From a virus: a DNA stretch of 20,068 nt. This document shows positions 3,379 through 19,992 of the stretch, in pieces. Positions within the stretch are counted from its first letter, which is position 1. The number at the start of each line of letters is the position of its first letter. The stretch covers positions 1-20,068 of IMG/VR virus record IMGVR_UViG_3300010354_000907; one strand, 5' to 3'. Below the pieces are notes generated by a model, which saw only the letters and a program-made list of their open reading frames with translations, did not search any database and was not told the DNA's origin. The translations under genes were made by a program, and so were the position numbers.

Positions 3379-6377
3379 TATTGATTACAAAGTATTGAAA
3401 AGTTTATACCGACATTAATTTCAAAAATATCTTCATCATCTACAGGAATACAATTAACATTATAAATTGCAACTGTATCGTTTTTACTATCAATATCATA
3501 ATCAAAACCAAATGTTTGTAAATCATTTAAACTATCGGTTAATGCAGTTAACCAGTCATTTGCCGATGGGAAATTTTGATATCCAACGGTTGTTGCAAAT
3601 AAATTCGAAACAAGTGAAACCCCTCCGTATTTTAAATCTACATACCAATTTGATGTTACTGTGTTTAAAATACAATCGTTTGTTGTTAATCCACTAGATT
3701 GTAAGTAATTCACTAGTGTATTTGCAAATATTGTTCCAAATGATAACAAGTCAGGATCTGCGTCCCAAGGATATATAGGACATTCAACTATTTGTACAGG
3801 ACAATCAAAGTCAAATAATTGTGTTGTTAACTCACACGGATTACAAGGAATAGGAACAATTTGACAACCAAATTGTCTTCTCCAAACAAATTTTTGTCTG
3901 TGAAATATTGAATTTTCAAGTCTTATCCCTGTATTCCAAATTGTGGTTGCCGGAACCATTTGTTCAACCAATCTAACCCAGTAATCACCCATACCGTTTA
4001 AGTAATCGATAATTGGTTGGTAGTTAAAATTGTCATTCTGAACCCCTATCAATTTTTCTGACTCTAAATATTTCCAATATATTGATGATAAAGTTGGGTA
4101 TCCTCCTGTTTTACCATCTGTAATAAATTGTCTGTTTCTAACATTTATCATATTTCTCCAAAAGGTTTGTAAAAATTCAAAAAATGTTTTTTCTTTTGGT
4201 TTTGGTATTATTACAGTCCAATCAATTCCTCCCGGTGATGGATAAACTGGTCTAGGATTTGGGTTACAATATGTTGGTTTGATATAGAATAATCCCTCAT
4301 TTGGTATTGGGAAGTTATATGTATTAGACATTGACCAAACATCGTATGCCAACCCTAAACTTGGATTTAACATAATGTCTACGTTTTTAACGTTTAATAC
4401 TAAACACTCATCTGGTGCTTGATAATATGCGTTGAAATTTCCATCAAAACTACTTCTTTGATCTACATTACTGTCGGTCCAACTTTTTTTGTTATCATTT
4501 ATTCTTCTCAATCTGAACCCTAAATCCATATATGGAAATTGTCTATATCTTTGTAGATATTCTTCACCATAGTTGAATGGTAATAATGAAGTTTGATATG
4601 TTGGGTTTTCTCCTGTAAAAACAGATGTTGTTATGTCGATCTGTTCTGGCATTCTATGTTGAGGTGTGGATTCAAACCACCCACCTCCTATTTGGAAAAA
4701 ATAACTGTCACTTTCAACTGGCATACTTGGACACCCAAATTCATCTAATGGATAATCAACTGATGTTGCACTTATATCTTTTGTAACGCTAGATAATGTG
4801 ACTCCAGTGTATTGTACACCCATGATTGAGTAGACATCGGTTAAATCTAATACCGGAACTTCTTGTGTGTAAGTACCTCCAGATATTTTAGCGTATTGTG
4901 TTTCAAAATCATTTATATTAATTCTTTGATCCGCAACGTAAACATATTCATTAAAATCTATTAAAAATTCTGGAGCCCCGATAAACTTCATTAAAATTTC
5001 TATTGATTTTCTAGTACCTTTTGACTTAAAAAGGTAAGCGGAGTTCATTATTAAATTTCTATAAAATTGATAATTCAACTCGTCTGGGGTTTGTCCAACC
5101 GCCAATCCAGAAAAATTTGACTTACTTCTTTTGAAAACAGAATTCAAAAAGTCTGTTTCCGTAATAGGTGAAATATTTGTTTGCCAACCTAGAGTTTCTG
5201 AAAGATTTTTTAATAGTTGTGAAGGTATGTCGTTTTTTATTGTGTAATTTACAGAGTTCATATTTGCTAAAGCTCCGATGAACTTTCTAGTTTCGTCAAA
5301 ACTTCTACCGTAAATTTGTAATATCTTATCATATTTTCTATCAATAGTATCAAATTCTTTTAAAGCTGATGTTGTATAAAATCTAGATATTAAATTTGTA
5401 CTGTAATTATCAAGATTTGTTGCAAATTCATTTAACTTACTTATGTAATTTTCAAACGACAATGTTCTAATATCCAAATTCCAGAAACCATCAACGGGAA
5501 ACTTTAAACTTTCATAAGTGAAGGTATAAGTTCCGTCTTCATTTTCTCTGGGTACTTGAAAATACGCCATATAAATCGGTGTTATTTGTCTATTTAGTAA
5601 GAAGTTTTCAACCGCATCAAAGTTTTCATTGAATACTTTATTCACTTCCAAATCATTTGGTCGAATTAAAAAGTTTGCGGATGAAAAATATTCATTAGGA
5701 AAAACCTCACCTTCAACAAAAATTTTAAAAGTTGTACTATTTGGATTTACAACAACAATATCATTTATGGGATATTCATTATTACTTATGAAAATAGAAT
5801 ATTTGGCATAATTCTTTTTCATGTTTCTTAATTCAGATGTTGAAAATTCGTATGCCGCCACGTTTTTTTCAGCATTCACCGAAAAATCAATTGCGAATGG
5901 ATTTTTAATCGCATCCATTAGAATTTCCATGGTTGTTTCGTTTTCAACACTATCATAACTTATATTAACAACTGTATACCCTGTACTAAAATCTGGTCTT
6001 GTTCTAGAAATTTCTAAACCAGCAGGAAAAAAGTTGATAATTTTAGTTATCGATGCGGACAATCTTGTAACCAAGGACCCATAAAGTGTAAAGTTTGTTA
6101 TTTGTGATAAGTCATAATTTGGATATACTTGAAAGTTTTTTGCAACAATCATCTTGGACTCCTCAATATTACTAATATTCATACTTTCTAATGAAATTAG
6201 TGATGAGAAACTTCCTATTTGGAATGATCTGTTTTGTTTTTCAACAACTCCAGATGAAAATTCAAAATTTCCTAGCGTAAATCCTCCACCATCAACAAGT
6301 TGGTTTCCAACCAAATTATCCGAAAATGTTGGTCCTCCGGTTGATTGAGGTGGACAAGTAAATTTTTTAATTGCCAT
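3378..6377 (-). CDS. Probable baseplate wedge protein with P2 gpI-like segment (T4 gp7 counterpart)
   Basis: This 999-residue protein has three visible parts. The N-terminal third is beta-rich. Residues about 340-475 are helical and end in FYRNLIMNSAYLFKSKGTRK, matching the 'xxxKGTxxxxExxL' signature of phage tail protein I (P2 gpI), whose relatives in contractile systems include T4 gp7 and TssG. Residues 794-839 carry a Trp/Arg-rich block (GDYWVRLVEQMVPATTIW, then FHRQKFVWRRQFGC). A cysteine-rich linker (CNPC at 845-848 and further Cys to 866) leads to a C-terminal domain of about 108 residues (892-999) resembling that of the following gene. T4 gp7 is of similar length (just over 1000 residues). 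The gene overlaps its neighbours by one base on both sides. It would act in wedge assembly with the gp6- and gp25-like proteins. The gpI-like match is by eye; the gp7 equivalence is inferred. Confidence 0.68.
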   Translation of the reverse strand: MAIKKFTCPPQSTGGPTFSDNLVGNQLVDGGGFTLGNFEFSSGVVEKQNRSFQIGSFSSLISLESMNISNIEESKMIVAKNFQVYPNYDLSQITNFTLYGSLVTRLSASITKIINFFPAGLEISRTRPDFSTGYTVVNISYDSVENETTMEILMDAIKNPFAIDFSVNAEKNVAAYEFSTSELRNMKKNYAKYSIFISNNEYPINDIVVVNPNSTTFKIFVEGEVFPNEYFSSANFLIRPNDLEVNKVFNENFDAVENFLLNRQITPIYMAYFQVPRENEDGTYTFTYESLKFPVDGFWNLDIRTLSFENYISKLNEFATNLDNYSTNLISRFYTTSALKEFDTIDRKYDKILQIYGRSFDETRKFIGALANMNSVNYTIKNDIPSQLLKNLSETLGWQTNISPITETDFLNSVFKRSKSNFSGLAVGQTPDELNYQFYRNLIMNSAYLFKSKGTRKSIEILMKFIGAPEFLIDFNEYVYVADQRININDFETQYAKISGGTYTQEVPVLDLTDVYSIMGVQYTGVTLSSVTKDISATSVDYPLDEFGCPSMPVESDSYFFQIGGGWFESTPQHRMPEQIDITTSVFTGENPTYQTSLLPFNYGEEYLQRYRQFPYMDLGFRLRRINDNKKSWTDSNVDQRSSFDGNFNAYYQAPDECLVLNVKNVDIMLNPSLGLAYDVWSMSNTYNFPIPNEGLFYIKPTYCNPNPRPVYPSPGGIDWTVIIPKPKEKTFFEFLQTFWRNMINVRNRQFITDGKTGGYPTLSSIYWKYLESEKLIGVQNDNFNYQPIIDYLNGMGDYWVRLVEQMVPATTIWNTGIRLENSIFHRQKFVWRRQFGCQIVPIPCNPCELTTQLFDFDCPVQIVECPIYPWDADPDLLSFGTIFANTLVNYLQSSGLTTNDCILNTVTSNWYVDLKYGGVSLVSNLFATTVGYQNFPSANDWLTALTDSLNDLQTFGFDYDIDSKNDTVAIYNVNCIPVDDEDIFEINVGINFSILCNQ

Positions 6378-7285
6378 TACGCTGTTATGTTATTAAATGC
6401 TTTACTAAAATCTATATTTACCCCTCTATCTTGTCTAACTTCATATAATAACTCATTAAACTGATCACGAATTTCATATAGATTGTATTGTTTATAAATG
6501 TTATTTTGATTATCATAGATTGTGTAAATACCATCATCAATTGATTTGGTTTGATTACCATAAAGAGCAATAGCCAGAGTTGATATGTCTTGGTCAACAA
6601 TTTCAATTTCTGTGGTAATTGGATTAAAGAATGTATTTGTTATTATAATATTTTGATTTGGTTGACCTATAAAAGGTGTTGCATTTGGTTTGTTTGTTGG
6701 TGATGCGGATGGTGATAAAGTACAAAATATTAAATTTGTCGTACCTTCCACATATCTATATCTTATTGATTTTTGTGATGTGTTGGTAAGATTAACATAT
6801 ACCGGTTCGCAATAAAAGGCCGATGTAATTAATCTAAAAAAGTTCGGTATTTTTGTTCCGTTATCATTAAGATATTCAACTCTAAAACCTACCAAACCTT
6901 GATTAACAAATTTATTTCTAAACTCTGCCGGTACATTATTGATATCTATAACAATACCTTTCACATTTGGAAGTGATGATAAAACACCACAATCTGTGAT
7001 CTTTGTTCTTATTTCTGCAGGTCTTATGTATAGAGTATAAATTCCTAGTTTATTAAACACATTTGCCGGTAATTTTAAATTATATAAACCGCCCAAAATT
7101 TCTATATTAGCATTTCCACCAGTATCATTATTATGAAAATAAGGTTTTAATACGCTTTTAGCGTCCAGTTTAGTTAACAAAAAATTATCTGTGTTATCTC
7201 TTGTTGCAGTATAGTTTAAGATAATTTCTACGTCATCTGGACTTACGTCTGCCGGTCTTATTGTTCCGTATGTACCTGTTGCCAC
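6377..7285 (-). CDS. Baseplate/tail structural protein, family not named
   Basis: This 302-residue protein starts with GTG at 7285-7283. An in-frame TAA lies at 7291-7289 and there is no further methionine in the protein, so GTG (or the very rare ATT just before it) must be the start. The N-terminus (ATGTYGTIRPADVSPDDVEI) looks like a strand-exchange or docking segment, followed by beta-rich sequence (LYTLYIRPAEIRTKI) and a C-terminal helical tail with YEIRDQFNELLYEVRQDRG. I recall similar proteins beside gp6-like genes in environmental tailed phages but cannot name a Pfam family. There is no catalytic motif, signal peptide or membrane segment. It follows the 390-residue gene after the only gap of the 11 kb operon and overlaps the 999-residue gene by one base. 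A structural role in the baseplate is inferred from context. Confidence 0.72.
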   Translation of the reverse strand: MATGTYGTIRPADVSPDDVEIILNYTATRDNTDNFLLTKLDAKSVLKPYFHNNDTGGNANIEILGGLYNLKLPANVFNKLGIYTLYIRPAEIRTKITDCGVLSSLPNVKGIVIDINNVPAEFRNKFVNQGLVGFRVEYLNDNGTKIPNFFRLITSAFYCEPVYVNLTNTSQKSIRYRYVEGTTNLIFCTLSPSASPTNKPNATPFIGQPNQNIIITNTFFNPITTEIEIVDQDISTLAIALYGNQTKSIDDGIYTIYDNQNNIYKQYNLYEIRDQFNELLYEVRQDRGVNIDFSKAFNNITA

Positions 7286-7309
7286 AATTTATTCTTTACA
7301 ATGTTTATT

Positions 7310-7329
7310 ATTTCTATAAATACAGAAAT
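7310..7329 (-). other. Small hairpin after the 390-residue gene
   Basis: ATTTCT and AGAAAT form a 6-bp stem around GTATTTAT, beginning at the last base of the TGA stop region and lying in the 43-base gap before the GTG-started 302-residue gene. There is no T-tract after it, so transcription probably continues. It could be an RNA processing or stabilising element; the stem is short and could be chance. Confidence 0.3.
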
Positions 7330-8501
7330 CATGTTTTTTTGATCTTGAAAAATTTATATCCGTATTTAATTAAATCTCCAAGATTATCAACTTCCCCTAA
7401 TCTTTCTATAGTTTCTATTGGGGACATCTTACCCCTTTCCACAAATATGTTCGATTGAAGTTGGGGTTCGTCTATTATATTTAACAAGGCTTCATCTTTT
7501 GTTATCGCCGATAACACATAGTCACTTGTATTGATACCATCAGATGATACAAAATAAAGGGTTGACCCATCTTTCATATCCCAGTACAGAATATTATTAA
7601 CCGTATATGCTGTGTAGTCATTAGTGAAGTTAGGTCCATACACTATACCAACACACCCAGAAGTTCCTGTTACCGGAACGTTTAGTCTGTATTTACCATT
7701 AAATAAGTTGTATTTCGGTCCATATTGTGTAAGATCGCTTAAACTACTTTTTGTGTATCCTGTTATCAAGAATGGTGTTGTTGTGTAATTACTTGAATCA
7801 TAGTCGTTAAGTATGTAGTTAGAATCACCAGTGAAAATATAGTCATAACTTATCGGTGTTCCGCTCCAATAACATCCTGCTGGCTGAAAGTTTGCAGTTC
7901 CTTGTGGGTTATTAATTGTAACTCCGGTCAGTGGTAGTTTGATTGGTTTTTCAACAAATGATATACCCCACGGTGAATAACAGGTCATTTTAATAACATA
8001 ATCTGCCGGTGTGGAAACATAAGTGTGTGTCACTGGAGTTTGACTTGTTAATGTAACAAGTGGTGTGTTATCACCCCAGTCAACCACATAAGTACAAAGT
8101 GATAAAAATTTAATAAAGCTTTCATCACTTGTGTTATAAAAAACAATATTATATGGCGATAATGTATTTCCTGACCATAAAAAGTTTACAATTGTTTCTT
8201 TTTGTAAAACCGCACCATCAAAAGGTGTGTAGTACCCCAAATCGACCGTATTTTCTGTAAATAATAATGGAACAGATACACACTCAAGTAAGGATTCGCC
8301 ATCGGTTCCTCCACTTAAAACATATTGTAATGGTAGATAAAACCCAGTATCTCCAGTAATTTGAGTTATTGTAGTTGCCGTTATTGGACAACATGGATCG
8401 ATAAATGTTGATATATCTGTTGAGCCAGTATAGTCACCATAAAAAATATCACCTTGTATGTTTCCTGGAGATATTTTGAAATAATACTTTTGTTCTTCCA
8501 T
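7329..8501 (-). CDS. Tail structural protein with a PKD/Ig-like domain
   Basis: This 390-residue protein contains one recognisable motif. Residues about 137-175 read YVVDWGDNTPLVT and then VTHTYVSTPADYVIKMT, matching the PKD-domain pattern (D-W-G-D, H-T-Y, then an alternating strand). PKD domains are Ig-like beta-sandwiches used for protein or polysaccharide contacts. The N-terminal part has CC at 37-38 and Thr/Gly-rich strands. The C-terminal 45 residues (IFVERGKMSPIETIERLGEV, then LGDLIKYGYKFFKIKK) are charged and helical, unlike the rest, and probably dock the protein to the baseplate. The ATG overlaps the stop of the upstream gene (TAATG). There is no signal peptide. I infer a peripheral baseplate or fibre-connector protein; the PKD assignment is by motif, the role by location. 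Confidence 0.72.
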   Translation of the reverse strand: MEEQKYYFKISPGNIQGDIFYGDYTGSTDISTFIDPCCPITATTITQITGDTGFYLPLQYVLSGGTDGESLLECVSVPLLFTENTVDLGYYTPFDGAVLQKETIVNFLWSGNTLSPYNIVFYNTSDESFIKFLSLCTYVVDWGDNTPLVTLTSQTPVTHTYVSTPADYVIKMTCYSPWGISFVEKPIKLPLTGVTINNPQGTANFQPAGCYWSGTPISYDYIFTGDSNYILNDYDSSNYTTTPFLITGYTKSSLSDLTQYGPKYNLFNGKYRLNVPVTGTSGCVGIVYGPNFTNDYTAYTVNNILYWDMKDGSTLYFVSSDGINTSDYVLSAITKDEALLNIIDEPQLQSNIFVERGKMSPIETIERLGEVDNLGDLIKYGYKFFKIKKT

Positions 8502-9313
8502 TATGGGTTTACATATTCATACCAACGAATTGGGTTTATTTCGTCTCCGACTCTATTATTAGTTAAGGTTGAAAATACCTCATAGGTTTTGTTTGTGTAA
8601 TCTAATTTCATTTTATAGTAAAAGTAATTATCACTATCAAAGTTGTAATAGTTACCAGGGAAATTTGATTGTGTTGTGTTCATCATTCTAACAAATATTC
8701 CAAGTCTTGCGTCAAAAAATTTAGCACTCATGTAGAATTCGTCTAGATCTATGTATCCGGTATCTCTTAACCAGTAGATAAAAAATCCTTCTTTATCTCC
8801 AACAAAATCTAATCCCATTTTGGGTTTTCTGATTTGAACATTTTGTAAATAATTAGATATTGTGACAATGTCAAAATATCCTTGTTGTACTGGAAGTATT
8901 ACTGTAAAATATATTGTTTGATCTGAATCTTCTTTTTTATCATAAAAGTCTAATTTAAAAAAAGATTTGGTGAAAGGTTTTGAATATGAATAAACATCTA
9001 ACGAACTAAACCCTTCAGTTAGATAACTATTGATCCAGGATGCTGAATTACTTAACGTTTGTCCCGTATCAAAAAAGTAAAATTCATAAAATATTTTTGT
9101 CACTTGTGAATTAGTGTTTGCCGACAAGTATGAATTATGTGAAAATCTTACAAGTTCAAAATCACTTGGTGCTCCAATTATGTCTTGAACCACTCCAGCT
9201 TGGTATACATCAATAGCCTGATCTCTATCAGTAAAATCCCATTTTATTTCAATAGGAATATCAACTTGTCGGTCATCAGTTGGTACCAGTAATTTATATT
9301 TATTCACACTCAT
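8501..9313 (-). CDS. Baseplate/tail structural protein, family not named
   Basis: This 270-residue protein is rich in aromatic residues and beta-strand pattern (KIFYEFYFFDTG, FFKLDFYDKKEDSDQTIYFT, GFFIYWLRDTGYIDL, NYFYYKMKLDYTNKTYEVF). I do not recognise a named family. The sequence suggests two beta-sandwich halves, with the second (about residues 160-270) resembling a jelly-roll or lectin-like fold, which is a guess from strand pattern only. The reading frame overlaps the end of the 585-residue gene by 14 bases and ends one base into the next gene, so the three are probably translated together. There is no signal peptide, membrane helix or catalytic motif. Its context places it among peripheral baseplate proteins, possibly a carbohydrate-contacting one. 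Confidence 0.7.
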   Translation of the reverse strand: MSVNKYKLLVPTDDRQVDIPIEIKWDFTDRDQAIDVYQAGVVQDIIGAPSDFELVRFSHNSYLSANTNSQVTKIFYEFYFFDTGQTLSNSASWINSYLTEGFSSLDVYSYSKPFTKSFFKLDFYDKKEDSDQTIYFTVILPVQQGYFDIVTISNYLQNVQIRKPKMGLDFVGDKEGFFIYWLRDTGYIDLDEFYMSAKFFDARLGIFVRMMNTTQSNFPGNYYNFDSDNYFYYKMKLDYTNKTYEVFSTLTNNRVGDEINPIRWYEYVNP

Positions 9314-11057
9314 CTATTAATGGATCTTCTATTGTTGTTATGTTTTGAACTCCTATACCTTCAGAAAATACTCTAAAAATTGTATTTTTAAATGGATAAT
9401 GTGTTCCGTTTGTGAATGGGTAATCTACACCAAAACCGTCAGAATCTATATACCCATATGGATATATATCTCTAAATCTAAACCCGTCCGATAAATTTGA
9501 ATAGAAGGCGTATGATGGTATGTTGATCACGTTAAGTGCGTCTGCTTCTTCAACATATGGTGAGTAATCTCTTATTTTAAGTTCAGAGTGTGGGTAGTAA
9601 TAGTAACCATATTTGTTATTTGGTGGTGATGGGTTTGAAGGAACAAAATAATTTTGGTTGAATGTGAACTTATGTATTTTTTTAGATATGACTCTTTCTA
9701 ACTGTTCATAATCGTTCCATTCACAAAAATCTCCTTCAATTGTGTCTCCACTTATCAAGTCGTTTGTATAAAAACAAGGAAATAAACCAGTAGGGTTATT
9801 TGGAAAATAAGATGAAAATGATAATGTACTATCAGATAAATTGTTGGTTGTGTCCCACCACCAATTCGGATTTGGTCCATCAAGATACCCGTTAAATGCG
9901 AATCCTTCTTTTAATTTATTAGTCCAACCAAAATATCCTTTCCATACTGTTGTAAAAAATAATTCGGTAACTGGTCTTTTTTGATTATCAATAAGGTTAT
10001 TAATATCAAAGTCGATGTTGAAAGAAAGTGTATAATTTTGACTTCCTTCTAATACCGAGGTTCTTGGGCAAGATGGGGGACTTAAAGCTTGTAATGGTGT
10101 TCCACCAGAATAAACTAGTTCTTTTTGTTTTATTATATTGTATATGCTTTGTTCATACCCACTATTCACAAGAGTCGCGTCCTGTGGGTTAGATATAATT
10201 TTATGTATTTTAACATAATATTTTGATGTGGTTTCAGATATGTTATCCAAATTTAAAACTTTTTTTAGTGTACCTGTAACACCAACACTAAATGTTGCAC
10301 CAAGGTAGCCTACATTATCTATACTGAATATATATTCATCACTTCCGTATCCAGTACCTCCAAGACTCGACACTTCAAAATAGTTATTACCATTATACGT
10401 TATTGTAAGTTCAACAAAATTACTAACTGCTAGTCCGTGTTTTATTGGACATTTAAAAACAATGAAATCATCATTTACATCTAATATATAAAAAGGTATC
10501 CCATCGCCAGCAACCCAAAACCAAGTAATTATTTTTTCAGGGTCGTTTAAATATAGAACTTTTGAAAAGTCATTATCAAATGCATATGATATATAATGGT
10601 TCCAATTGTACGTGGAAGCACTTTTATTAACAAATAATTGATGGTTAACAGGACCAGATGTATATCCGTACAACGAATTATCGTTTCTTATAAAATCAAA
10701 TTCAGTATACTGTGGAAATCCAGACCAACTGATCGGTGCGTTTGGAAAACAAACCGAATTTTGAGTGTTTTCTATTAAATTACTATAATATAGATAATTG
10801 TAATACGGAAAATATGACGTTACACCCGAATAAGCATTTTTGAAAATCATGCTAAATTTTGTGATTGGTCTGAAAGTTGTTGACTTTTGTCTTTCATAAT
10901 CAAACACCTCTTGTAAGTTAACGTCCAAGTATCTTTCATATTCCACTTGTTCTTTTACTGTTTGTTCTAGCACAACTTTTTCAGATCCATCAAGATTGAT
11001 GCTCCCTTGGAATCTTTTATTACCTAATATTATTTTACTTGTTTCGTCGACTGCCAT
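9300..11057 (-). CDS. Large aromatic-rich baseplate/tail structural protein
   Basis: This 585-residue protein starts with a short charged segment (about residues 1-50, including EKVVLEQTVKEQVEYERYLD), possibly a helical docking arm. It continues with very aromatic, beta-rich sequence (SYFPYYNYLYYSNL; GYYYYPHSELKIRDY). A block around residues 441-470 (EGDFCEWNDYEQLERVISKK) and the C-terminal region DGFGVDYPFTNGTHYPF look strongly constrained. I recall similar proteins in environmental tailed phages next to gp6-like genes, but no named family. The ATG lies 13 bases after the stop of the 1865-residue gene and the 3' end overlaps the next gene by 14 bases. The acidic end (IDECE) resembles the end of the 745-residue protein (VECE). 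Structural role inferred; no enzyme motif seen. Confidence 0.72.
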   Translation of the reverse strand: MAVDETSKIILGNKRFQGSINLDGSEKVVLEQTVKEQVEYERYLDVNLQEVFDYERQKSTTFRPITKFSMIFKNAYSGVTSYFPYYNYLYYSNLIENTQNSVCFPNAPISWSGFPQYTEFDFIRNDNSLYGYTSGPVNHQLFVNKSASTYNWNHYISYAFDNDFSKVLYLNDPEKIITWFWVAGDGIPFYILDVNDDFIVFKCPIKHGLAVSNFVELTITYNGNNYFEVSSLGGTGYGSDEYIFSIDNVGYLGATFSVGVTGTLKKVLNLDNISETTSKYYVKIHKIISNPQDATLVNSGYEQSIYNIIKQKELVYSGGTPLQALSPPSCPRTSVLEGSQNYTLSFNIDFDINNLIDNQKRPVTELFFTTVWKGYFGWTNKLKEGFAFNGYLDGPNPNWWWDTTNNLSDSTLSFSSYFPNNPTGLFPCFYTNDLISGDTIEGDFCEWNDYEQLERVISKKIHKFTFNQNYFVPSNPSPPNNKYGYYYYPHSELKIRDYSPYVEEADALNVINIPSYAFYSNLSDGFRFRDIYPYGYIDSDGFGVDYPFTNGTHYPFKNTIFRVFSEGIGVQNITTIEDPLIDECE

Positions 11058-11070
11058 TATAAATTGTTGT

Positions 11071-14000
11071 TTAACCCTCTAAATTAACATAAAGTTTTAT
11101 AAATTTATCTACCGCTGTTGTTCCATTATTCAAACCAAAATAAAAATGGAATGGAGCTCCAACAACAATCGCCTTTCCTTTTGGTACTCCATTCAAAACA
11201 TTATTTGTTTGTGAATAAGGTTGTCCATTTAAATCAAAATTCGATATAAAACCAAAGTTGGTTGTACTTGTTTGGTAATATTCGTTCAAATTATCAAAAT
11301 CTAAATTCTGATAATACTGACTATAGAATCCGGATGAGGTTGCGTTTTGATCTGCCGTTGTAACCCAGTTATTATCTTCAGATCCAAAAATGTTAGTTGA
11401 CGCTCCAGATATTTGCCATTTGTAGTGTGGGACAATTTGATCTGTACTGTACCCAAAAAATCTAACAACAGTACAATTATTATTATTTGTAAATGTTTCG
11501 ATTCCAGGTGTTAACTTTCTTCTATAGTTTTGATATTCAGTGGATGAAGAGAAGAATACCCCAAATACCGGTCTAGTATCACTTGTACTATCGTTTCCAA
11601 AAAACAAAAAGTTAGATGGATAATTTTCTTCAATATAAGGGCTAACCTTCCATTCAGAGTTTATTGACAATGCTTGTGCGAAGTCACCATCAATTCTATC
11701 TCCCTTTCTATTACTATTGAAAAATTGTACAAGTCCTTTACCTTCACTATTTCCACCACTTGGTGTTCCAATAGGTAACATCTGTTGAATAAAAGTTGAA
11801 TTTAAAATTCTAGATAAGAACCCCATTTGAATCAAGTCTGAATTATCCTGGTAAGATGTTGATTTCATTTGATCAATAATATAAGATCCAAAATTTTGAC
11901 TATCACAAATTGCTGAAATAAACTCATCTCTTGGTCCCATATCCATTACGGTCGTTGGAAATTGAATTTGTTTAACATTATAAGCTCGATTTCCATTTGG
12001 ATCTACGGGGGAGTCTTTTCCAATAAAGTTATTTCCGTCCCATGGTGAACTTCTATAGTAAAAACCATTTGTGATGTCGTTATAAACAACAACATCTTTA
12101 CAATATTCATAAGTTGGGTCACTTAAATTATTTGACAAGTATAAACTGTTTTTATTAAATGCAAACATATAAAGAACCCCATTAATCCAATTGTTTTGAT
12201 ATGTTTGAGCAAATACGCCACGACACATTGCAAACATTAATGTAAATCTTGTTTTCCACTCCATTAGTAGTTTAGCGTCTTTGAAAAACTCTGGGAAAAG
12301 GTATATTTTTTTGAATATAGGTCCGTCACTTTCTTGGTAGTTCAATAGACAATAACATCCGTTTACCACTCTATTTGGTGGAACTACACAATTTGGGTCA
12401 ACTCCGACATTCACTCCAGTACCGGTATAACATTGTAATGATACCAAGTTTTCACAAGTTAACGTTGAGGTTAGACTTTGAAGGAATTGTGATTGATCTT
12501 CTGATTCTTGACCTAAATTCAAGTCTGAACTAAAACTATTGGTTGGGTCTGTAGGTAACTCTGCACTGTAATACGTAAAATTGTTATTTTGGTGAAGACC
12601 AAAACTTGTTTGATTAAAACAATCTTCAGTTTTAGTTGATGTTGGTATTCTATCACTTCTCATAACTAATCTTTGACTCACCAAGGCCGTTGGGTTGGGG
12701 TAGTTAATCGGTGTTGGGTTGTACTTGAAATAAGCTGGGGAATAAATTGCAAATTTTCTGATACTTGGTAATGGCCAGTATCGAACTTTATATGATGAGT
12801 TATTAACAAATGGACCAGAATAATACCCACCACTAGCGGAAGTGTATGTTGCGGTAAATGAACCACCAGCGAAGTAATAATTTGATGTTGTGTTTGTAGG
12901 TAAAGGATTCTGTGCTGTTAAAAGCGGTAAAAATAAATTTCTTGATGGATTACCAGAGTTCATTATATATTGTCCTGTGGTATTCAATTGAGCTATGGTA
13001 TTATAACCAACGGTTGGGGTGTACCCAGCGGCTAGTGGTTCGTCCGGACATAGATAATAATATGGTAAATTAGATGTAAACGCACTATACTGATTTCTAA
13101 TGAATCCATTTGTGTCCACATAACTAGGACTTATTCTAAAGTTATAAGAATTAAAATATAAACTTGTTGCGGTTGTGTTTGAAGTTATTAAATGACTTGC
13201 GGGTTTTATACCACCAGGTATACCTTTAATTGGTATATTCAGATAATACTCTCCTTCAACAACTGCGGAACCATTTTCACTGTTTTGACCAAATATTCTT
13301 GATATATCGTATCTATTTTGATGTTTACCGGAGTGAGGGTCCACACCTCTTGTTAATATTAATATTTCGTAATCTTCATAACCTTCAATTTGGGTTATTG
13401 TATTTGGGGTTGTTTTAAATATTGGTGTCACTGAAGCTGGGAAATATGGTGGATCACATTCCCACTCATAAAAGTATACAGTTCCATGGTTTAGATATTT
13501 TTTAGGAAATCTGTTGTTGTTCAAACTATACGCCGAATTACTTATAAACTCACTATACGTATAACCTGTTATAATTTGGAAGTACTCAATGTCTGTAACA
13601 TTTTTCAAGTACGTTTCAGTTTGTCCCGTGTTTGTAATAAAATACTGAACCGCCTGATTAGACGTATTGGTTGTTGCGTAAGTTACGGTTATGTTTGTTG
13701 CGGAAAATGATGTCCCGGTAAGTGCATTATTTCCAAATTGATTTTTAGTATTCGCGGTGATTGAGTTGAAAAAGGTCGCCCCGGTTAAATTTTGATTACA
13801 AGTTGATAACGACGGATCTTGGAATGAAAATAATTTTCCAACACCAATACTTTGTAAGGTACCTTTTCTTGCTAAAATAACTAAAGGTTGATCAAAGTGG
13901 TGTGCCGCGTTTTGTGGGTAGTTAAAACTTGCTTTAATTTTATTTTCATTTAGGAAATATTTTTGTCTATAGTTAAACTCGTTTAGTTTTTGTGAAAATG

Positions 14001-16668
14001 TTTCTGTTTGTGGAAATGCCAACCATCTATGGTTATTATTTAGGTATCTATCCACAGAAAATAAAAATGGGGTTGGGGCGTGTAATGATGACTTTGCAGG
14101 TATACCTGTTAAATCATTTCCAGGATCTAGAGATTCACTTCCGGAAAATATCCTATTAAAGTTCATGGTTGCAGCAACTACTACATTTGATGAAATCTCT
14201 TGTTGACCTAGATTATATGTAAATGATTTGTATTGATTAGTCATTTGTAGACCTGTTGAGTTACAATAGAATCTACCTAATGATGGATCAGTTGGGTCAT
14301 CATCAAGATTTATTTGATTTGTATTTGGGTGTTCAATTGCATATGAATTAACTTCATTTATAGGTGCTAAAAAAGAATTAGACGTACTGGCCGATGTTGG
14401 CATACCTCCAATTGTACCTCCAACACCTTCTTGTGCGTCTGCGATATTTTGATTTATCGAGTTTTCATCAAAATCATCAGATAATGTTGCATTTCCACAA
14501 TCACAATCGCATGATGCACAATCTGGATAAGTGATCATAGGTAGTCCTATCCTTGGAAATCCGGTTATCCTCAAGGCGGCAAAAATTGATGCTGCTAGAA
14601 ATGTTAAAGACAGGGCGACAAAAAACGCACATTTTAATGCATAGTAAATCAAAAGAAATGTTAATCGAATTATTTCTAAAATATTTGTTACATTCACAAC
14701 AAACCCCGCACCTGCACTTACTATACCAGAAATTTCATTTATTTGGTGTACTGTTTCTGATATGGCATCTCTACAAAATTCAATAGATAATCTTAATAAC
14801 AATATTCCTAAATAAATTAACACAAATTTTAAAATTGGCCACATAAGTGCAACAAAATGTGCAACAAATAATATAACTAAAAGTGGTATGGATAATATAT
14901 TAATTAATAAATTGAATGTGAAAAATTGTGCATCAAAGTTTCTTATGATATCATTAACTGGAAACGTATTTACATTAGATTTACAAGTCCTGTTATCAAT
15001 TTCCTTAATACCTAAATGTTTTGCCCTCCCTCTACCATTTTTATATCTATCGATAAACAATGCTGTTGTGTAAACCTTATTATAATGGTATTCATAAAAC
15101 GTGTCTTCACAATCAATCGCCGATTGGGGATCAACATAATCGTCCCAATCTAAACTAAAACTATATGAACGAAGTAGGTCAAAATAGTCCTGACCATAAA
15201 AATTGTACTCAATCTGTGATGGTTGATTTGGATCTGTTTTAGTGATTGTAATTTGTATTATATCACCAATGTTAATCGGAATTAAACTTATATCACCAAA
15301 ATATGGTTGTGAATTAATTGATATTAATATAGAACTGACATTTTGTGTATTTGATAAATGAAACCCACCGTTTCCTATAAGTGGTGTCACCAAATAAGAA
15401 ACTGATAATGTTCCAACCGGGAAATTAATAGTAACGCTTGGCGGTGCTATTGGTGCATTAATTAATGGATCACTGTTCGATGTAGTCCATCCATGTTCTT
15501 TTATATTTGGGACTAAAAAGTTTGCTCTTTGAACCTCGTTTTGAAGTCCTCCTTCATTATTCCATTTAAACTTTAATCTATATTTTCCTTTTGTGGGTAT
15601 ACCGACTTTTGGATCCAAAGAAATTGCTGGTTCACCAAATTCATTTGTGTAAACATAATCCATGTTCATAGGTATATTAATCACATATGATCCATCTCCG
15701 TCGATAAGTTTACCATCTTGTTCAAACTTATATTGTTCCAGAATTGGAAGTCCTTGGTCGTCCAGGTTAATTGTTTGTCTTATTGCCAAAACTTGTCCTG
15801 GACCGGCAACCATTTCACATAAATTTCCAGTATTATTTTTTGGTTTACATGATTTTGCTCTTATCGCATCATCATCCGCATTTGACATAATTGACCCCAT
15901 AAGAATCGCCTTGGGTTCAATTTTAATATTCGATTCTTTTGTTAAGTCAAAATCAACTCTTGTTATACCTAATTGACAAATATCTTCCTCACCCCACAAT
16001 GGTGAAATCTCTACAATCTTTGTGAGACTTTTTACTTGTGGTAACTCATTTAGATTTGATGAGGTTTTGAACTGATTTCCGTCAACTTGTGACTCTGTTG
16101 CCATACCGGCTTGTATCAAATCTTGTGGTGTAAAAGAAAAACAACCAATATCAGATAAATCAACATCCATAAAGATTGTTTGAGTTCCTATTGGAACTCC
16201 AAAAATCATGAAGTCTCCACTTTCATTTGTTTTTGTCGTGAACTTATAGTATTTGTCATAAACTTCAATATAACTTTGGTCTAAAAGTGTTTCTTCTTTT
16301 GTTGGAAATGATCCGGTAGCGTTGTGACCAACATATGATGGTTCTTTGGACAGTAAGTTATATCTATAACCTTCTTCTGTTGTGTCAGAAATTGACGTGT
16401 AAGGGTATAATTCAGTTATTATTGGGTTTGTTGAGTCTTGTGGTGTGATTGGTAAAAAAACCGAAACTTTTGCATTTGGTAATCCAAAACCACCGTTTAC
16501 AAAAACTCTTCCAACAACAACACCATAATCAGAACATTGTCTTGTGTATATATCTTGTTGTAATATTTTTAAAGATAGTATGTTGATACCTTCAAAGTCT
16601 TGTTGTAAGTTAACTTTGATTGCTTTATCAACACCCACTTGTGTTCTTATTCTTTGTGATTTTGGCAT
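11071..16668 (-). CDS. Giant baseplate/tail structural protein with Ig-like N-terminus and internal membrane-type helices
   Basis: This 1865-residue protein is the largest in the window. Residues about 48-170 resemble a carboxypeptidase-regulatory/CNA-B-like beta-sandwich (YGVVVGRVFVNGGFGLPNAK ... TTKTNESGDFMIFGVPIGTQ). Residues about 583-700 are strongly hydrophobic, with three or four possible membrane helices (e.g. LLINILSIPLLVILFVAHFV and FVLIYLGILLLRLS). A cysteine cluster (CASCDCDCG, 717-725) follows. The remaining 1100 residues are Asn/Thr/Ser/Tyr-rich and beta-structured, ending in APFHFYFGLNNGTTAVDKF. It follows the gp6-like gene after 72 bases and precedes the other tail genes. There is no N-terminal signal peptide, so it should be made in the cytoplasm and assembled into the tail. 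Possible roles are a baseplate hub, a tip, or a membrane-contacting ejection protein. The structural role is inferred; the hydrophobic block is directly visible. Confidence 0.75.
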   Translation of the reverse strand: MPKSQRIRTQVGVDKAIKVNLQQDFEGINILSLKILQQDIYTRQCSDYGVVVGRVFVNGGFGLPNAKVSVFLPITPQDSTNPIITELYPYTSISDTTEEGYRYNLLSKEPSYVGHNATGSFPTKEETLLDQSYIEVYDKYYKFTTKTNESGDFMIFGVPIGTQTIFMDVDLSDIGCFSFTPQDLIQAGMATESQVDGNQFKTSSNLNELPQVKSLTKIVEISPLWGEEDICQLGITRVDFDLTKESNIKIEPKAILMGSIMSNADDDAIRAKSCKPKNNTGNLCEMVAGPGQVLAIRQTINLDDQGLPILEQYKFEQDGKLIDGDGSYVINIPMNMDYVYTNEFGEPAISLDPKVGIPTKGKYRLKFKWNNEGGLQNEVQRANFLVPNIKEHGWTTSNSDPLINAPIAPPSVTINFPVGTLSVSYLVTPLIGNGGFHLSNTQNVSSILISINSQPYFGDISLIPINIGDIIQITITKTDPNQPSQIEYNFYGQDYFDLLRSYSFSLDWDDYVDPQSAIDCEDTFYEYHYNKVYTTALFIDRYKNGRGRAKHLGIKEIDNRTCKSNVNTFPVNDIIRNFDAQFFTFNLLINILSIPLLVILFVAHFVALMWPILKFVLIYLGILLLRLSIEFCRDAISETVHQINEISGIVSAGAGFVVNVTNILEIIRLTFLLIYYALKCAFFVALSLTFLAASIFAALRITGFPRIGLPMITYPDCASCDCDCGNATLSDDFDENSINQNIADAQEGVGGTIGGMPTSASTSNSFLAPINEVNSYAIEHPNTNQINLDDDPTDPSLGRFYCNSTGLQMTNQYKSFTYNLGQQEISSNVVVAATMNFNRIFSGSESLDPGNDLTGIPAKSSLHAPTPFLFSVDRYLNNNHRWLAFPQTETFSQKLNEFNYRQKYFLNENKIKASFNYPQNAAHHFDQPLVILARKGTLQSIGVGKLFSFQDPSLSTCNQNLTGATFFNSITANTKNQFGNNALTGTSFSATNITVTYATTNTSNQAVQYFITNTGQTETYLKNVTDIEYFQIITGYTYSEFISNSAYSLNNNRFPKKYLNHGTVYFYEWECDPPYFPASVTPIFKTTPNTITQIEGYEDYEILILTRGVDPHSGKHQNRYDISRIFGQNSENGSAVVEGEYYLNIPIKGIPGGIKPASHLITSNTTATSLYFNSYNFRISPSYVDTNGFIRNQYSAFTSNLPYYYLCPDEPLAAGYTPTVGYNTIAQLNTTGQYIMNSGNPSRNLFLPLLTAQNPLPTNTTSNYYFAGGSFTATYTSASGGYYSGPFVNNSSYKVRYWPLPSIRKFAIYSPAYFKYNPTPINYPNPTALVSQRLVMRSDRIPTSTKTEDCFNQTSFGLHQNNNFTYYSAELPTDPTNSFSSDLNLGQESEDQSQFLQSLTSTLTCENLVSLQCYTGTGVNVGVDPNCVVPPNRVVNGCYCLLNYQESDGPIFKKIYLFPEFFKDAKLLMEWKTRFTLMFAMCRGVFAQTYQNNWINGVLYMFAFNKNSLYLSNNLSDPTYEYCKDVVVYNDITNGFYYRSSPWDGNNFIGKDSPVDPNGNRAYNVKQIQFPTTVMDMGPRDEFISAICDSQNFGSYIIDQMKSTSYQDNSDLIQMGFLSRILNSTFIQQMLPIGTPSGGNSEGKGLVQFFNSNRKGDRIDGDFAQALSINSEWKVSPYIEENYPSNFLFFGNDSTSDTRPVFGVFFSSSTEYQNYRRKLTPGIETFTNNNNCTVVRFFGYSTDQIVPHYKWQISGASTNIFGSEDNNWVTTADQNATSSGFYSQYYQNLDFDNLNEYYQTSTTNFGFISNFDLNGQPYSQTNNVLNGVPKGKAIVVGAPFHFYFGLNNGTTAVDKFIKLYVNLEG
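14569..14922 (-). other. Membrane-helix block within the 1865-residue protein
   Basis: Residues about 583-700 contain, in order, a helix of about 27 residues ending in VALMW (584-610), a second after a proline (611-631, with FVLIYLGILLLRL), a Gly/Ala/Val-rich amphipathic stretch (648-664), and a long hydrophobic run (665-700, with LTFLLIYYALKCAFFVALSL) that could cross a membrane once or twice. Flanking sequence is polar. Topology and helix count are estimated by eye. Confidence 0.7.
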
Positions 16669-16740: not shown

Positions 16741-18579
16741 TCAGAAAAAGTTAACGGTTTTGAAGTTCAATACTCTCACATTAATATCTTTATTTGGGAA
16801 CCTAACTTGATAAGTTTGTGTTGGTTCTGCAAATATTGTATCGGCAACTAATTCGATTTGTCTTGTCTGTGGGTCGGAATATTTTTGAGAAGTTTGAGAT
16901 GATGAATATTGACCCCCAACGTTATTAAAAAATAACATATCAGAAATACTTATAACTCCGTCTAATTGTTGTATTTGTTTTCTAATTTCTGAAACATAAA
17001 CATTTTCACCTAACTGACGGTTGCTTGGTGAAAAATAATTTGTGATTATTTCAATTACCTTTGTAACCAATGAACCTTGATTTTGTGTTGAGTCTAAAAC
17101 AACATCAACAGTTACCGAAAGATCAATAACATTTGCACTTTCAACTGAAATGTAATCATTAATCATTCTGTAGTTTGATAAGTAATTAGCAATATTTGTT
17201 TTAAGTGTGTTTGAAGATATTTCGGTTAGTTTACCATCATTATCATATGATAATAATTTGATTTTAATTTTATTGTTCTCTTCTGTAATACTTACTTTAC
17301 CTGGGGCTCCAAATTGTGATGGCATTGTTCTTATGATCGATTCATAATCATTAATTGTAACTGCTCTGTTTTGTGCCGCAAAATTAAAGGACACCATTTG
17401 TCTCACTTCTTCTGTTGTTGGTGGATTGGCTCCTCCAATTGCTGCGGTTAAGTTGTTACATCTTAATGAATTGATAACAGTTCTATTAACACTTTCTGAT
17501 GGTCCGTTTACCGCAAATGATACAATTCCTATTTGATTAATAACACCAATACCTAAATTACTCGATTGTCCACCACCAACTCTATATTGTACAAACATAG
17601 TTGTATTTGGTCTTAACGCACTTCCAAGTGTTAAATTATTTGAGTATTTGGAAAGATTAAACCCGTAACCATCTCTTGTAAATTCTCGAAGTTGTTCTTC
17701 TGCAGATGTATTACCACCACCAAATGTCATTTTGAAAAATCCTTCTGGTGTATATTCGGTTATAAACTTGTTATTAGTCATTATGTATTTTCCAACTTTA
17801 ACACCTGGATTATCAGATACTTTTGTTGGGTCTTCGACAAATACCCTGTCTTCCATAAGGGCTTTTACTTCATACCATCTGTTTTCCAAACCTAAAAATT
17901 CTTGAGGTTGGGGTACTGTGGTATATTGTGTTCCTTCTTTAATCAAAACACTAGTTATACCTAAAACATTTTTTTCCGGTAAAAACATCTCAAAAAATGG
18001 TTTCACGTCATTTGCTGTGATTACTCTTTTGAAAACTTTTGTACTTCCGTTTACAACCACTTCTCTTTTAGTGATTGTATAATTCAACAATTTTCCGGAT
18101 GAATCAAAATTTGGTGTTTTTAATCTATTTGGGAATCCTTCTGAATTTATTGCAGATGAAAAATCAATATCATAAACCGTTTCAAATGGTTGTCCACCAC
18201 CGTTAACTTGAGCACCTCTTCTTAATATTCCACAATATCTTAAATCTTCCTTATCTCCAAAAGCTGGAACAGTTATGGAAAAATCTACCAGAGCCACTGA
18301 TGGTCTTTGTCCTGGTATTTTTAAACCATATGTTCTTGCTATATTATAAATTGATGATCTTTGTTGTGCAAATTGCAAAACGGTTTCTTGGATACTTCTG
18401 TCTATGTGAAATTGTAGGTTATCAGTTACCGCAGCGTTGATATCCATCAAAACTGAAAATATACCAGCATCATTAAAGTTTTGGACTAAATCTGGATAAT
18501 ACTGTCTTGTAAAATTAATAAGTTCAGTTCTAATCCCCTGAAAATCTCTGGTTGTATATGATATTTTTTTTTCTGCCAT
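16741..18579 (-). CDS. Baseplate wedge protein, gp6 / baseplate-J family
   Basis: This 612-residue protein matches the T4 gp6 / phage Mu-P2 baseplate-J type by several blocks: TTRDFQGIRTELINFTRQYY near the N-terminus, FNDAGIFSVLMDINAAVTDN (35-54), RSSIYNIARTYGLKIPGQRP (74-93), and the central LTAAIGGANPPTTEEVRQMV (377-396) followed by NFAAQNRAVTINDYESII (399-416), the usual J-type core. T4 gp6 is of similar size (about 660 residues). gp6 dimers form the ring that holds the baseplate wedges together. The gene starts six bases after the stop of the gp25-like gene, the classic gp25-gp6 order, and the start is supported by the N-terminal match and AACAA before the ATG, without a Shine-Dalgarno motif. 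Family call is firm; the T4 comparison is from general knowledge. Confidence 0.93.
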   Translation of the reverse strand: MAEKKISYTTRDFQGIRTELINFTRQYYPDLVQNFNDAGIFSVLMDINAAVTDNLQFHIDRSIQETVLQFAQQRSSIYNIARTYGLKIPGQRPSVALVDFSITVPAFGDKEDLRYCGILRRGAQVNGGGQPFETVYDIDFSSAINSEGFPNRLKTPNFDSSGKLLNYTITKREVVVNGSTKVFKRVITANDVKPFFEMFLPEKNVLGITSVLIKEGTQYTTVPQPQEFLGLENRWYEVKALMEDRVFVEDPTKVSDNPGVKVGKYIMTNNKFITEYTPEGFFKMTFGGGNTSAEEQLREFTRDGYGFNLSKYSNNLTLGSALRPNTTMFVQYRVGGGQSSNLGIGVINQIGIVSFAVNGPSESVNRTVINSLRCNNLTAAIGGANPPTTEEVRQMVSFNFAAQNRAVTINDYESIIRTMPSQFGAPGKVSITEENNKIKIKLLSYDNDGKLTEISSNTLKTNIANYLSNYRMINDYISVESANVIDLSVTVDVVLDSTQNQGSLVTKVIEIITNYFSPSNRQLGENVYVSEIRKQIQQLDGVISISDMLFFNNVGGQYSSSQTSQKYSDPQTRQIELVADTIFAEPTQTYQVRFPNKDINVRVLNFKTVNFF

Positions 18580-18585
18580 TTGTTA

Positions 18586-19047
18586 TTAAATATTTAAGAT
18601 TACGAAATCACTTGAATCTAAAGCCCCTGAAGTGATTTTATAATCAATTCTTACTTTAGCGGTGTATTCTTTTTCCGCTAGTCCTGGAACTCTATATTCT
18701 CTTGAGCCATCTGGTGTTATATAAGTTGCTCCCGGATCTTCGTAATTCGCGGTTGCAGGTTTAATTTCAATGTTTGTTATTAATATACCCGGTAAATATT
18801 CACCAACACTATCTCTTATTTCAGTTTCTATTTCTGAAAAGGTTGGTCCGTCAAGTGGTTCGAAAATATATTCGTAAAGTCTGGTACCGAAATCTGGTAA
18901 AAAATATCTGGTTCCTTTTTTTGTTAAAAGTAAGTGAACTAGATTACTTCTTATTTCTGATGATGTAGTTTGAGTCGCATAAAGATATCTACCATCTTCA
19001 GAATCATAAAACGGAAAGTTAATACCATATGTGAATCCATTTGCCAT
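18586..19047 (-). CDS. Baseplate wedge protein, GPW/gp25 family
   Basis: This 153-residue protein shows the signature of the GPW/gp25 family: hydrophobic helix IRSNLVHLLLTKKGTRYFLP at residues 32-51, then DFGTRLYEYIFEPLDG at 52-67. The Glu-Pro at 63-64 lies in the conserved 'EPR'-type loop of gp25/TssE, which contacts the sheath and the gp6-type protein. T4 gp25 is about 132 residues, so this copy is slightly longer, mainly by an insertion around residues 101-124 with DPGATYITPDGSREYRVPG. It is the first gene of the tail block, begins downstream of a strong terminator, and so needs its own promoter. In contractile tails gp25 joins the wedge to the first sheath ring. Family call is confident. 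Confidence 0.93.
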   Translation of the reverse strand: MANGFTYGINFPFYDSEDGRYLYATQTTSSEIRSNLVHLLLTKKGTRYFLPDFGTRLYEYIFEPLDGPTFSEIETEIRDSVGEYLPGILITNIEIKPATANYEDPGATYITPDGSREYRVPGLAEKEYTAKVRIDYKITSGALDSSDFVILNI

Positions 19048-19380: not shown

Positions 19381-19992
19381 TCATTTCCCCAAGTTTGTTT
19401 CATAATATTTCGTATTTAAACCCCATTTAAATTCATCGATTTTTTTAATATCAAAATCAACTAATTTGTTATTTTTTGTCACTTGATTACATAAGAAAAT
19501 AAACATGTCTTGACTGAAGATATTTTTCATTACATTTATGTGTTTATGAACCCATTGTACATTCCCAATAACATAACCATTTTTACTATCTATTCTATCT
19601 AATGATGCGGTATATGATTTATCATTCCAACTAATTGGTAATCTAATGTTAATTCCTGATAAACTACATTTTCCGTTTTGTTTTTTAAATAATTCATGAA
19701 TATATTCTTTGGTTAAATTAAAATTTAAATTTTTTCTATTTAATCTTTTGGATGTTTTATATCTAGTTATGTTATACCATAAATCACCATTAATACCCCC
19801 TTCTTTATTGATTCTATTTTTACAACCACAAGAAATTATAGTGCCGCTACGTAGGTGAGTCCCAAAAACTTCTGTTATATTACCACATTCACATTCACAC
19901 CTATATCTTATGTGACCATTTTTATTCTTTTTTAGTTCTTCAACAACTTTAAGTTTTCCAAAAACTTTACCAATCATTTCAATTTTTTTCAT
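19381..19992 (-). CDS. Free-standing HNH endonuclease with N-terminal Cys zinc-finger-like domain
   Basis: This 203-residue protein has two parts. The N-terminal 60 residues (IGKVFGKLKVVEELKKNKNG, then CECECGN at 32-38 and SCGC at 54-57) match the cysteine-rich DNA-binding module found in many phage HNH and AP2-type endonucleases; five cysteines could bind zinc. Residues 107-156 contain a typical HNH nuclease core: GKCSLSG, then SLDRIDSKNGYVIGNVQWVH (130-149) followed by HINVMK, with D132, D135, N144, H149 and N153 at the expected places. Such genes are usually homing endonucleases that cut allele-lacking relatives near their own insertion site. It lies between two terminator-like hairpins, outside the tail operon. 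The ATG abuts one arm of a leader hairpin. No frameshift is seen, so it is probably intact. Cleavage site unknown. Confidence 0.88.
   Translation of the reverse strand: MKKIEMIGKVFGKLKVVEELKKNKNGHIRYRCECECGNITEVFGTHLRSGTIISCGCKNRINKEGGINGDLWYNITRYKTSKRLNRKNLNFNLTKEYIHELFKKQNGKCSLSGINIRLPISWNDKSYTASLDRIDSKNGYVIGNVQWVHKHINVMKNIFSQDMFIFLCNQVTKNNKLVDFDIKKIDEFKWGLNTKYYETNLGK

Follow-up and report, generated by a model that had tools for sequence, protein, structure and literature searches.

A very hydrophobic block lies inside a giant protein encoded beside the baseplate wedge genes of this virus, and the block is real and conserved among the protein's homologues. The window, a 20,068-base virus fragment, carries its tail genes on the minus strand, and judging from sequence and gene order the 1865-residue giant protein is probably an extra component of the baseplate in a widespread, uncultured lineage of large phages with contractile tails. 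Because no cultured member was found, we can only infer that the protein is located in the virion. What looks new is the place, a membrane-type segment in a protein encoded next to contractile-phage wedge genes, and the arrangement is unusual also for the small hydrophobic gene linked to it. Under our favoured reading, which we rate at roughly two chances in five, the helices would be shielded in the baseplate and then exposed and inserted into the host membrane at infection. The route of contractile-phage DNA across the inner membrane is still poorly understood, and the block is a concrete candidate. It suggests that in these phages the tail base itself may engage the host membrane or open it. 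The analysis also gives a common family to hundreds of unannotated giant proteins from an abundant uncultured phage group.

The giant protein and its locus

The tail genes that frame the giant protein, and the two conserved modules within it, are the following.

11071-16668, minus strand: giant baseplate-module protein, 1865 residues (open reading frame with homologues in IMG/VR; family unnamed)
16741-18579, minus strand: gp6-like baseplate wedge protein (Baseplate_J; PHROG 219, E = 2.6e-24; Pfam PF04865)
18586-19047, minus strand: gp25-like baseplate wedge protein (Pfam PF04965, PHROG 261)
3378-6377, minus strand: gp7/gpI-like wedge protein, 999 residues, with a YLFKSKGT motif (short homologies, and the P2 gpI motif read from the sequence)
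15469-16668, minus strand: N-terminal conserved module of the giant protein, residues 1-400, common to the whole family (alignment A1, family hmm, tree, AF2)
11074-12216, minus strand: C-terminal module of the giant protein, residues about 1485-1865 (NxWINGxLY), conserved across clades

In minus-strand order the gp25-like gene is followed by the gp6-like gene, the giant gene and then open reading frames of 585, 270, 390, 302, 999 and 745 residues. The giant gene had been described as lying directly after the gp6-like wedge gene, and the coordinates bear this out (11071-16668 beside 16741-18579, minus strand). As expected for a baseplate protein of a contractile phage, the giant gene is linked to gp25-, gp6- and gp7-like wedge genes, with a sheath gene in the same genome. 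The giant protein itself returned no match in Pfam, PHROG, NCBIfam or PDB sequences. Its residues 1-400 include a transthyretin/CarboxypepD_reg-like piece, with a weak, sub-cutoff CarboxypepD_reg match in distant members, and in the shorter members of the family the C-terminal module comes almost directly after the hydrophobic block.

An assignment of the giant protein as the gp7/gpI equivalent was unsupported. It has neither the gp7/gpI-type motif (xKGTxxx) nor a PHROG or Pfam match of this type. The motif is present in the 999-residue protein of the same window, which fits this role. PDB profile searches with the giant protein gave no match, and the fold searches, dominated by Ig/FN3 domains, say little about a fold shared with the solved gp7/gpI/TssG structures. 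That protein has short homologies to a 1336-residue protein of Microcystis phage Mel-JY01 (E = 3e-6) and a 1265-residue protein of Flavobacterium phage immuto (E = 9e-5), and over a short stretch it also resembles a large wedge-region protein of LR756508. As the 999-residue protein carries the gpI/gp7-type motif, the giant protein would be an addition to the gp25/gp6/gp7 set.

Two other genes of the window deserve mention. The 745-residue tail-module protein (1141-3378, minus strand) has matches to SprB repeats and Por_Secre_tail-like sequences, which are typical of Bacteroidota surface proteins and hint at the phylum of the host. A 203-residue open reading frame (19381-19992, minus strand) that lies upstream of the gp25-like gene resembles an HNH-type homing endonuclease, judged by eye only (CSLSG...LDRIDSKNGY).

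The hydrophobic block and its conservation

Positions 14569-14922 of the minus strand correspond exactly to residues 583-700 and form the most hydrophobic stretch of the giant protein. The best 118-residue window has a mean hydropathy of 1.58, compared to shuffle maxima of 0.40 +/- 0.13 (z = 9.3), and none of 2000 shuffles scored as high, ruling out chance hydrophobicity and confirming the very hydrophobic block that the sequence-only reading had described. Two hydrophobic regions can be distinguished, residues 580-633 and 649-704, with 19-residue Kyte-Doolittle (KD) maxima of 2.66 and 2.29. Charged residues account for 6-9% within the helices, compared to 21% and 14% in the two halves of the protein, and none of the window's other wedge genes or downstream genes has a comparable segment. 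The elements of the block and its surroundings are as follows.

14719-14931, minus strand: hydrophobic helix 1, residues 580-650 (hydropathy, alignment, AF2)
14563-14703, minus strand: hydrophobic helix 2, residues 656-702, a clade-specific enlargement (hydropathy, alignment)
14998-15018, minus strand: HLGIKEI motif, residues 551-557, directly before the block, invariant in alignment A1
14983-14985, minus strand: Cys562, before the block, invariant in 34 of 34 homologues
14497-14520, minus strand: Cys motif after the block, residues 717-724, with C717, C720 and C722 invariant and C724 mostly so

The first part of helix 1, to about residue 615, corresponds to the block of the other clades, in which the HLGIKEI motif has an HxGIK-like counterpart. 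Helix 1 contains conserved polar positions at N586, N590, H604 and K614 and an invariant P611. Across the block N586, H604, W610, P611 and K614 are invariant or nearly so, as are the flanking cysteines C562, C717, C720 and C722. As in integral membrane proteins, the segments are of transmembrane length, carry few charges and are conserved in the homologues.

Three or four helices had been proposed for the block. The AF2 model of residues 1-745, which is weak (pLDDT 61, pTM 0.39), draws one long helix (580-649) and one other (660-700), both at modest confidence; the block stands, and the proposed number of helices may not. For the complete 1148-residue homologue L307 (69 sequences) the model reached a pLDDT of 71 and a pTM of 0.70, with one helix, residues 459-488, predicted at the position of the block (pLDDT about 84-89). 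Given this single helix, the block seems to have started out as one helix of about 30-45 residues, which the window's clade looks to have enlarged to about 100 hydrophobic residues. The flanking parts are polar, as previously described, and the two models support the beta-rich structure ascribed to them. Using Foldseek, the N-half model gave no match with E below 1e-3, while the matches of L307 below this value were nearly all to Ig/FN3-type domains, chiefly in its C-terminal part and including a T1 tail-tip chain; for the remainder of L307, a part barely tested by this search, no known family was named. The sole full-length relative in BFVD was A0A8S5LA66 (Myoviridae sp. ctPuP5), which is 39% identical to L307 with a TM-score of 0.67-0.76. 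It belongs to the same family as the giant protein, and is unannotated and uncharacterised.

No cultured relative of the giant protein was found among 50,697 phage records, even at E = 10. The genes around gp6 in immuto, Mel-JY01, LR756508 and BRock, which have related gp6-like proteins, encode no such hydrophobic protein. Hundreds of relatives were present in IMG/VR, encoded beside the gp6-like genes of uncultured large contractile phages, with at least 593 relatives of the gp6-like gene and at least 586 of the N-terminal half confirmed. When distant members found on MAG contigs (L115, L116) served as queries, the family grew to include proteins of 728 to 3022 residues on contigs of up to 412 kb.

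The block is found at the same place, after the HxGIK-like motif, in 189 of 192 distinct complete homologues. One of the exceptions, L061, is a split open reading frame with the block in the next one, and leaving it out gives 189 of 191; L118 is incomplete. Checked in this way, as the sequence-only reading had proposed, the hydrophobicity is conserved across the family. Homologues without the block, which the sequence-only reading had named as grounds for rejection, occur only at the family edge: L115 and L117, the true absences, are divergent, long-branch proteins from bacterial bins (MAGs). Within the window's clade the block is retained in all 143 homologues long enough to include it, although the second helix is largely gone from L073, L172 and L175. 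Charged residues make up 0.5% of columns 582-609 in this clade. The second half of the block is only 37-39% identical yet keeps a mean KD of 1.4-1.7, a level that similarly divergent stretches of the N-terminal half, never above 0.57, do not approach. In the alignments of two clades the hydrophobicity repeats with a helical period of 100-105 degrees and leaves a conserved polar stripe (p = 0.0002 each), which is compatible with helices that turn one face to lipid and the opposite face to neighbouring helices or a lumen. Cysteines are enriched after the block throughout the family (3.9 per 60 residues, compared to an average of 1.05, in 189 homologues). Only the first part of the block is detectably homologous between clades, and across the family the hydrophobic sequence ranges in length from about 20 to 130 residues.

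In a 296-kb relative, G001, the orthologue is the only one of 25 open reading frames of at least 600 residues to carry a long hydrophobic block. Two others of this size, outside the tail module, have one hydrophobic segment each, and no long block is present in the large tail-module proteins that are candidates for the tape measure. Some further features of these contigs were also recorded. The giant gene of L061 is split in two (4721-6634 and 6749-10120) just before the block, through a frameshift, an interruption or an assembly error, and the L025 homologue is divided into two adjacent frames (10001-13225 and 13251-15593) at about residue 1074. G001 (220166-220549) and G005 (86790-87173) each encode a 127-residue protein with N- and C-terminal hydrophobic segments, possibly a lysis or membrane protein. 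In the 595-kb phage L114, a 674-residue frame (27980-30004) with Cys/Pro/Ser repeats (PSFDCISFCxP) lies downstream of the gp6-like match, about 7 kb away.

Two clades with a short block have an additional gene, for which three examples are given here.

L312, 9755-9991: small hydrophobic protein, upstream of the giant gene
L197, 7604-7978: small hydrophobic protein, upstream of the giant gene
L207, 7556-7990: small hydrophobic protein, upstream of the giant gene

In these two clades the gene for this small protein of 76-178 residues immediately precedes the giant gene at 103 of 123 loci, and in the window's clade it is found at none of 111 (96 of 116 and 0 of 90 in a relaxed count), statistics that should not be over-read, as the complementarity of small gene and long block may be a single evolutionary event in the tree. 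The block of the window's clade is about twice as long (median 98 hydrophobic residues versus 46). The small protein begins with a CxC or CxxC motif in 101 of 104 cases, contains a hydrophobic segment of about 40 residues with proline in all 104, and matched no known family. Its presence next to the giant protein in the sister clades lends indirect support to a membrane association of the block. The idea that the small protein had been fused into the block of the window's clade was not supported. The profile alignment looked suggestive, with a hhalign single-comparison E of 0.011 and, in both sequences, a proline with Q/H nine residues later, but when the hydrophobic segment was compared by itself, 205 of 250 column permutations scored as high.

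Possible roles of the helices

In the reading we favour, six or more copies of the giant protein would hold their helices shielded in the unfired baseplate. A rearrangement on infection might then expose the helices, which could enter a membrane of the host envelope and anchor the tail or line or seal the DNA path, similar to the role proposed for the transmembrane segments of tape measure or megatron proteins. Insertion is favoured by the near-universal presence of the block after the same motif (189 of 191 complete homologues), by the 0.5% charge in columns 582-609, by a second half that stays hydrophobic despite divergence and by the helical periodicity with its polar stripe in two clades. 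The L307 helix (pLDDT about 84-89), the tape-measure candidates of G001 that lack a block when the orthologue has a long one, and the small hydrophobic gene, present upstream where the block is short and never where it is long, point the same way, although this last pattern may be one event in the tree. There are also precedents in T5 pb2, the R4C megatron and the diffocin and P2 tape measures, and in the membrane anchoring of a CIS by Cis13. Against insertion stand L115 and L117, which lack the block, and the weak N-half model (pTM 0.39), and the main warning comes from T4 gp7, a wedge protein with a membrane-annotated segment that is nevertheless soluble. The polar stripe would also fit helices buried in a protein bundle, and it is possible, if somewhat unlikely, that the helices pack together and against wedge or hub proteins in the baseplate ring and never touch lipid, like the (gp6)2-gp7 core bundle. 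Such core bundles are standard in contractile baseplates, and the narrowness of the stripe, the single high-confidence helix of L307 and the membrane-type segment noted in gp7 would all suit one. However, the hydrophobicity over 118 residues is far above that of any T4 or P2 baseplate protein tested, a charge of 0.5% over 28 columns and an adjoining small hydrophobic gene in the sister clades are not readily explained by a core, and an amount of hydrophobic sequence that varies from about 20 to 130 residues would be odd for one that is precisely packed.

The block, together with the small Cys-motif protein in the sister clades, might instead serve to tether baseplate assembly to the inner membrane or to keep the giant protein in solution until its incorporation, with no role in ejection. 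The small protein, whose gene adjoins the giant one at 103 of 123 sister loci, would then be a natural partner in the membrane. The tCIS, fixed to a membrane by tail-fibre and baseplate extensions, shows that such attachment occurs. Yet the window's clade has no small gene (0 of 111), and a released virion would still need to hide its hydrophobic helices, and we consider a pure assembly anchor unlikely. The location of the giant protein is read from gene order only, and it could be a membrane-bound assembly or host-interaction factor merely sharing the operon, but its size, its beta-rich domains and the linkage to gp6-like genes across many contigs fit a structural protein and make this very improbable. 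Insertion at infection could also be taken a step further: the membrane-penetrating function may have moved from the tape measure or hub into the giant wedge-associated protein, in several clades with a dedicated small membrane protein, such that the baseplate ring forms or seals the passage. We regard this extension as fairly unlikely.

Comparison with known systems

The suggestion of an undescribed mechanism, made when only the sequence had been read, went too far, because segments that insert into membranes are already known or proposed in other tail proteins (T5 pb2, the R4C megatron, the diffocin tape measure). In the open-access literature we found no transmembrane-bearing wedge protein in contractile phages. 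T4 gp7 is a soluble wedge protein in the baseplate and, like gpI/TssG-like proteins, shares with the giant protein a large size, a gene next to gp6 and a hydrophobic stretch. Its record (NC_000866, 83060-86158) notes a 'predicted integral membrane domain' at the C-terminus, where we observed one 29-residue stretch, residues 879-907, with a KD of 2.07 and a 118-residue mean of only 0.11. Gp7 differs in having just these 29 residues, and its role in the window fits the separate 999-residue protein. The view that baseplate proteins normally lack such segments is broadly right for the tested wedge, hub, sheath and tube proteins of T4 and P2, with 118-residue means of at most 0.35, but does not hold for the short stretch in gp7.

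The megatron of roseophage R4C, the hub of a siphophage/GTA, is also a baseplate protein with hydrophobic helices proposed to enter the outer membrane on infection, and it is proposed to form a pore (PMC10276861). It differs in being a hub trimer of a non-contractile tail, and no sequence relation to the giant protein was found. A contractile system anchored in the membrane of the producing cell has been described as tCIS (PMC8894136), and the Cis13/Cis12 proteins of the thylakoid-anchored CIS are likewise baseplate-associated with membrane-contacting extensions. Cis13, again without a detectable sequence relation, differs as a fibre-like trimer whose C-terminal transmembrane helix anchors the machine in the producing cell. 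The published 'moraphages', aquatic phages with Bacteroidota hosts in which a tape measure was not found (PMC12619734), resemble the lineage of the window.

Tape measures offer the remaining comparison. P2 gpT, T5 pb2 and diffocin CD1366 are likewise tail proteins with a block of membrane-type helices, proposed to insert into the host membrane. In T5 pb2 a 46-residue stretch reaches the outer membrane (PMC10038345), and the diffocin, TP901-1 and P2 tape measures have transmembrane regions (PMC10996793). The giant protein has the helix block and otherwise does not resemble a long, mainly helical, tube-filling protein encoded between the tube and hub genes. Its gene comes after the gp6-like one, the AF2 models are mainly beta outside the block, and no tube-filling coiled coil was predicted. 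Over 118 residues the tested part of T4 gp29 reached 0.55 and P2 gpT 1.40, the latter nearly equal to the 1.58 of the giant protein. In character the block is closer to the transmembrane region of P2 gpT than to any of the baseplate proteins examined from T4 and P2.
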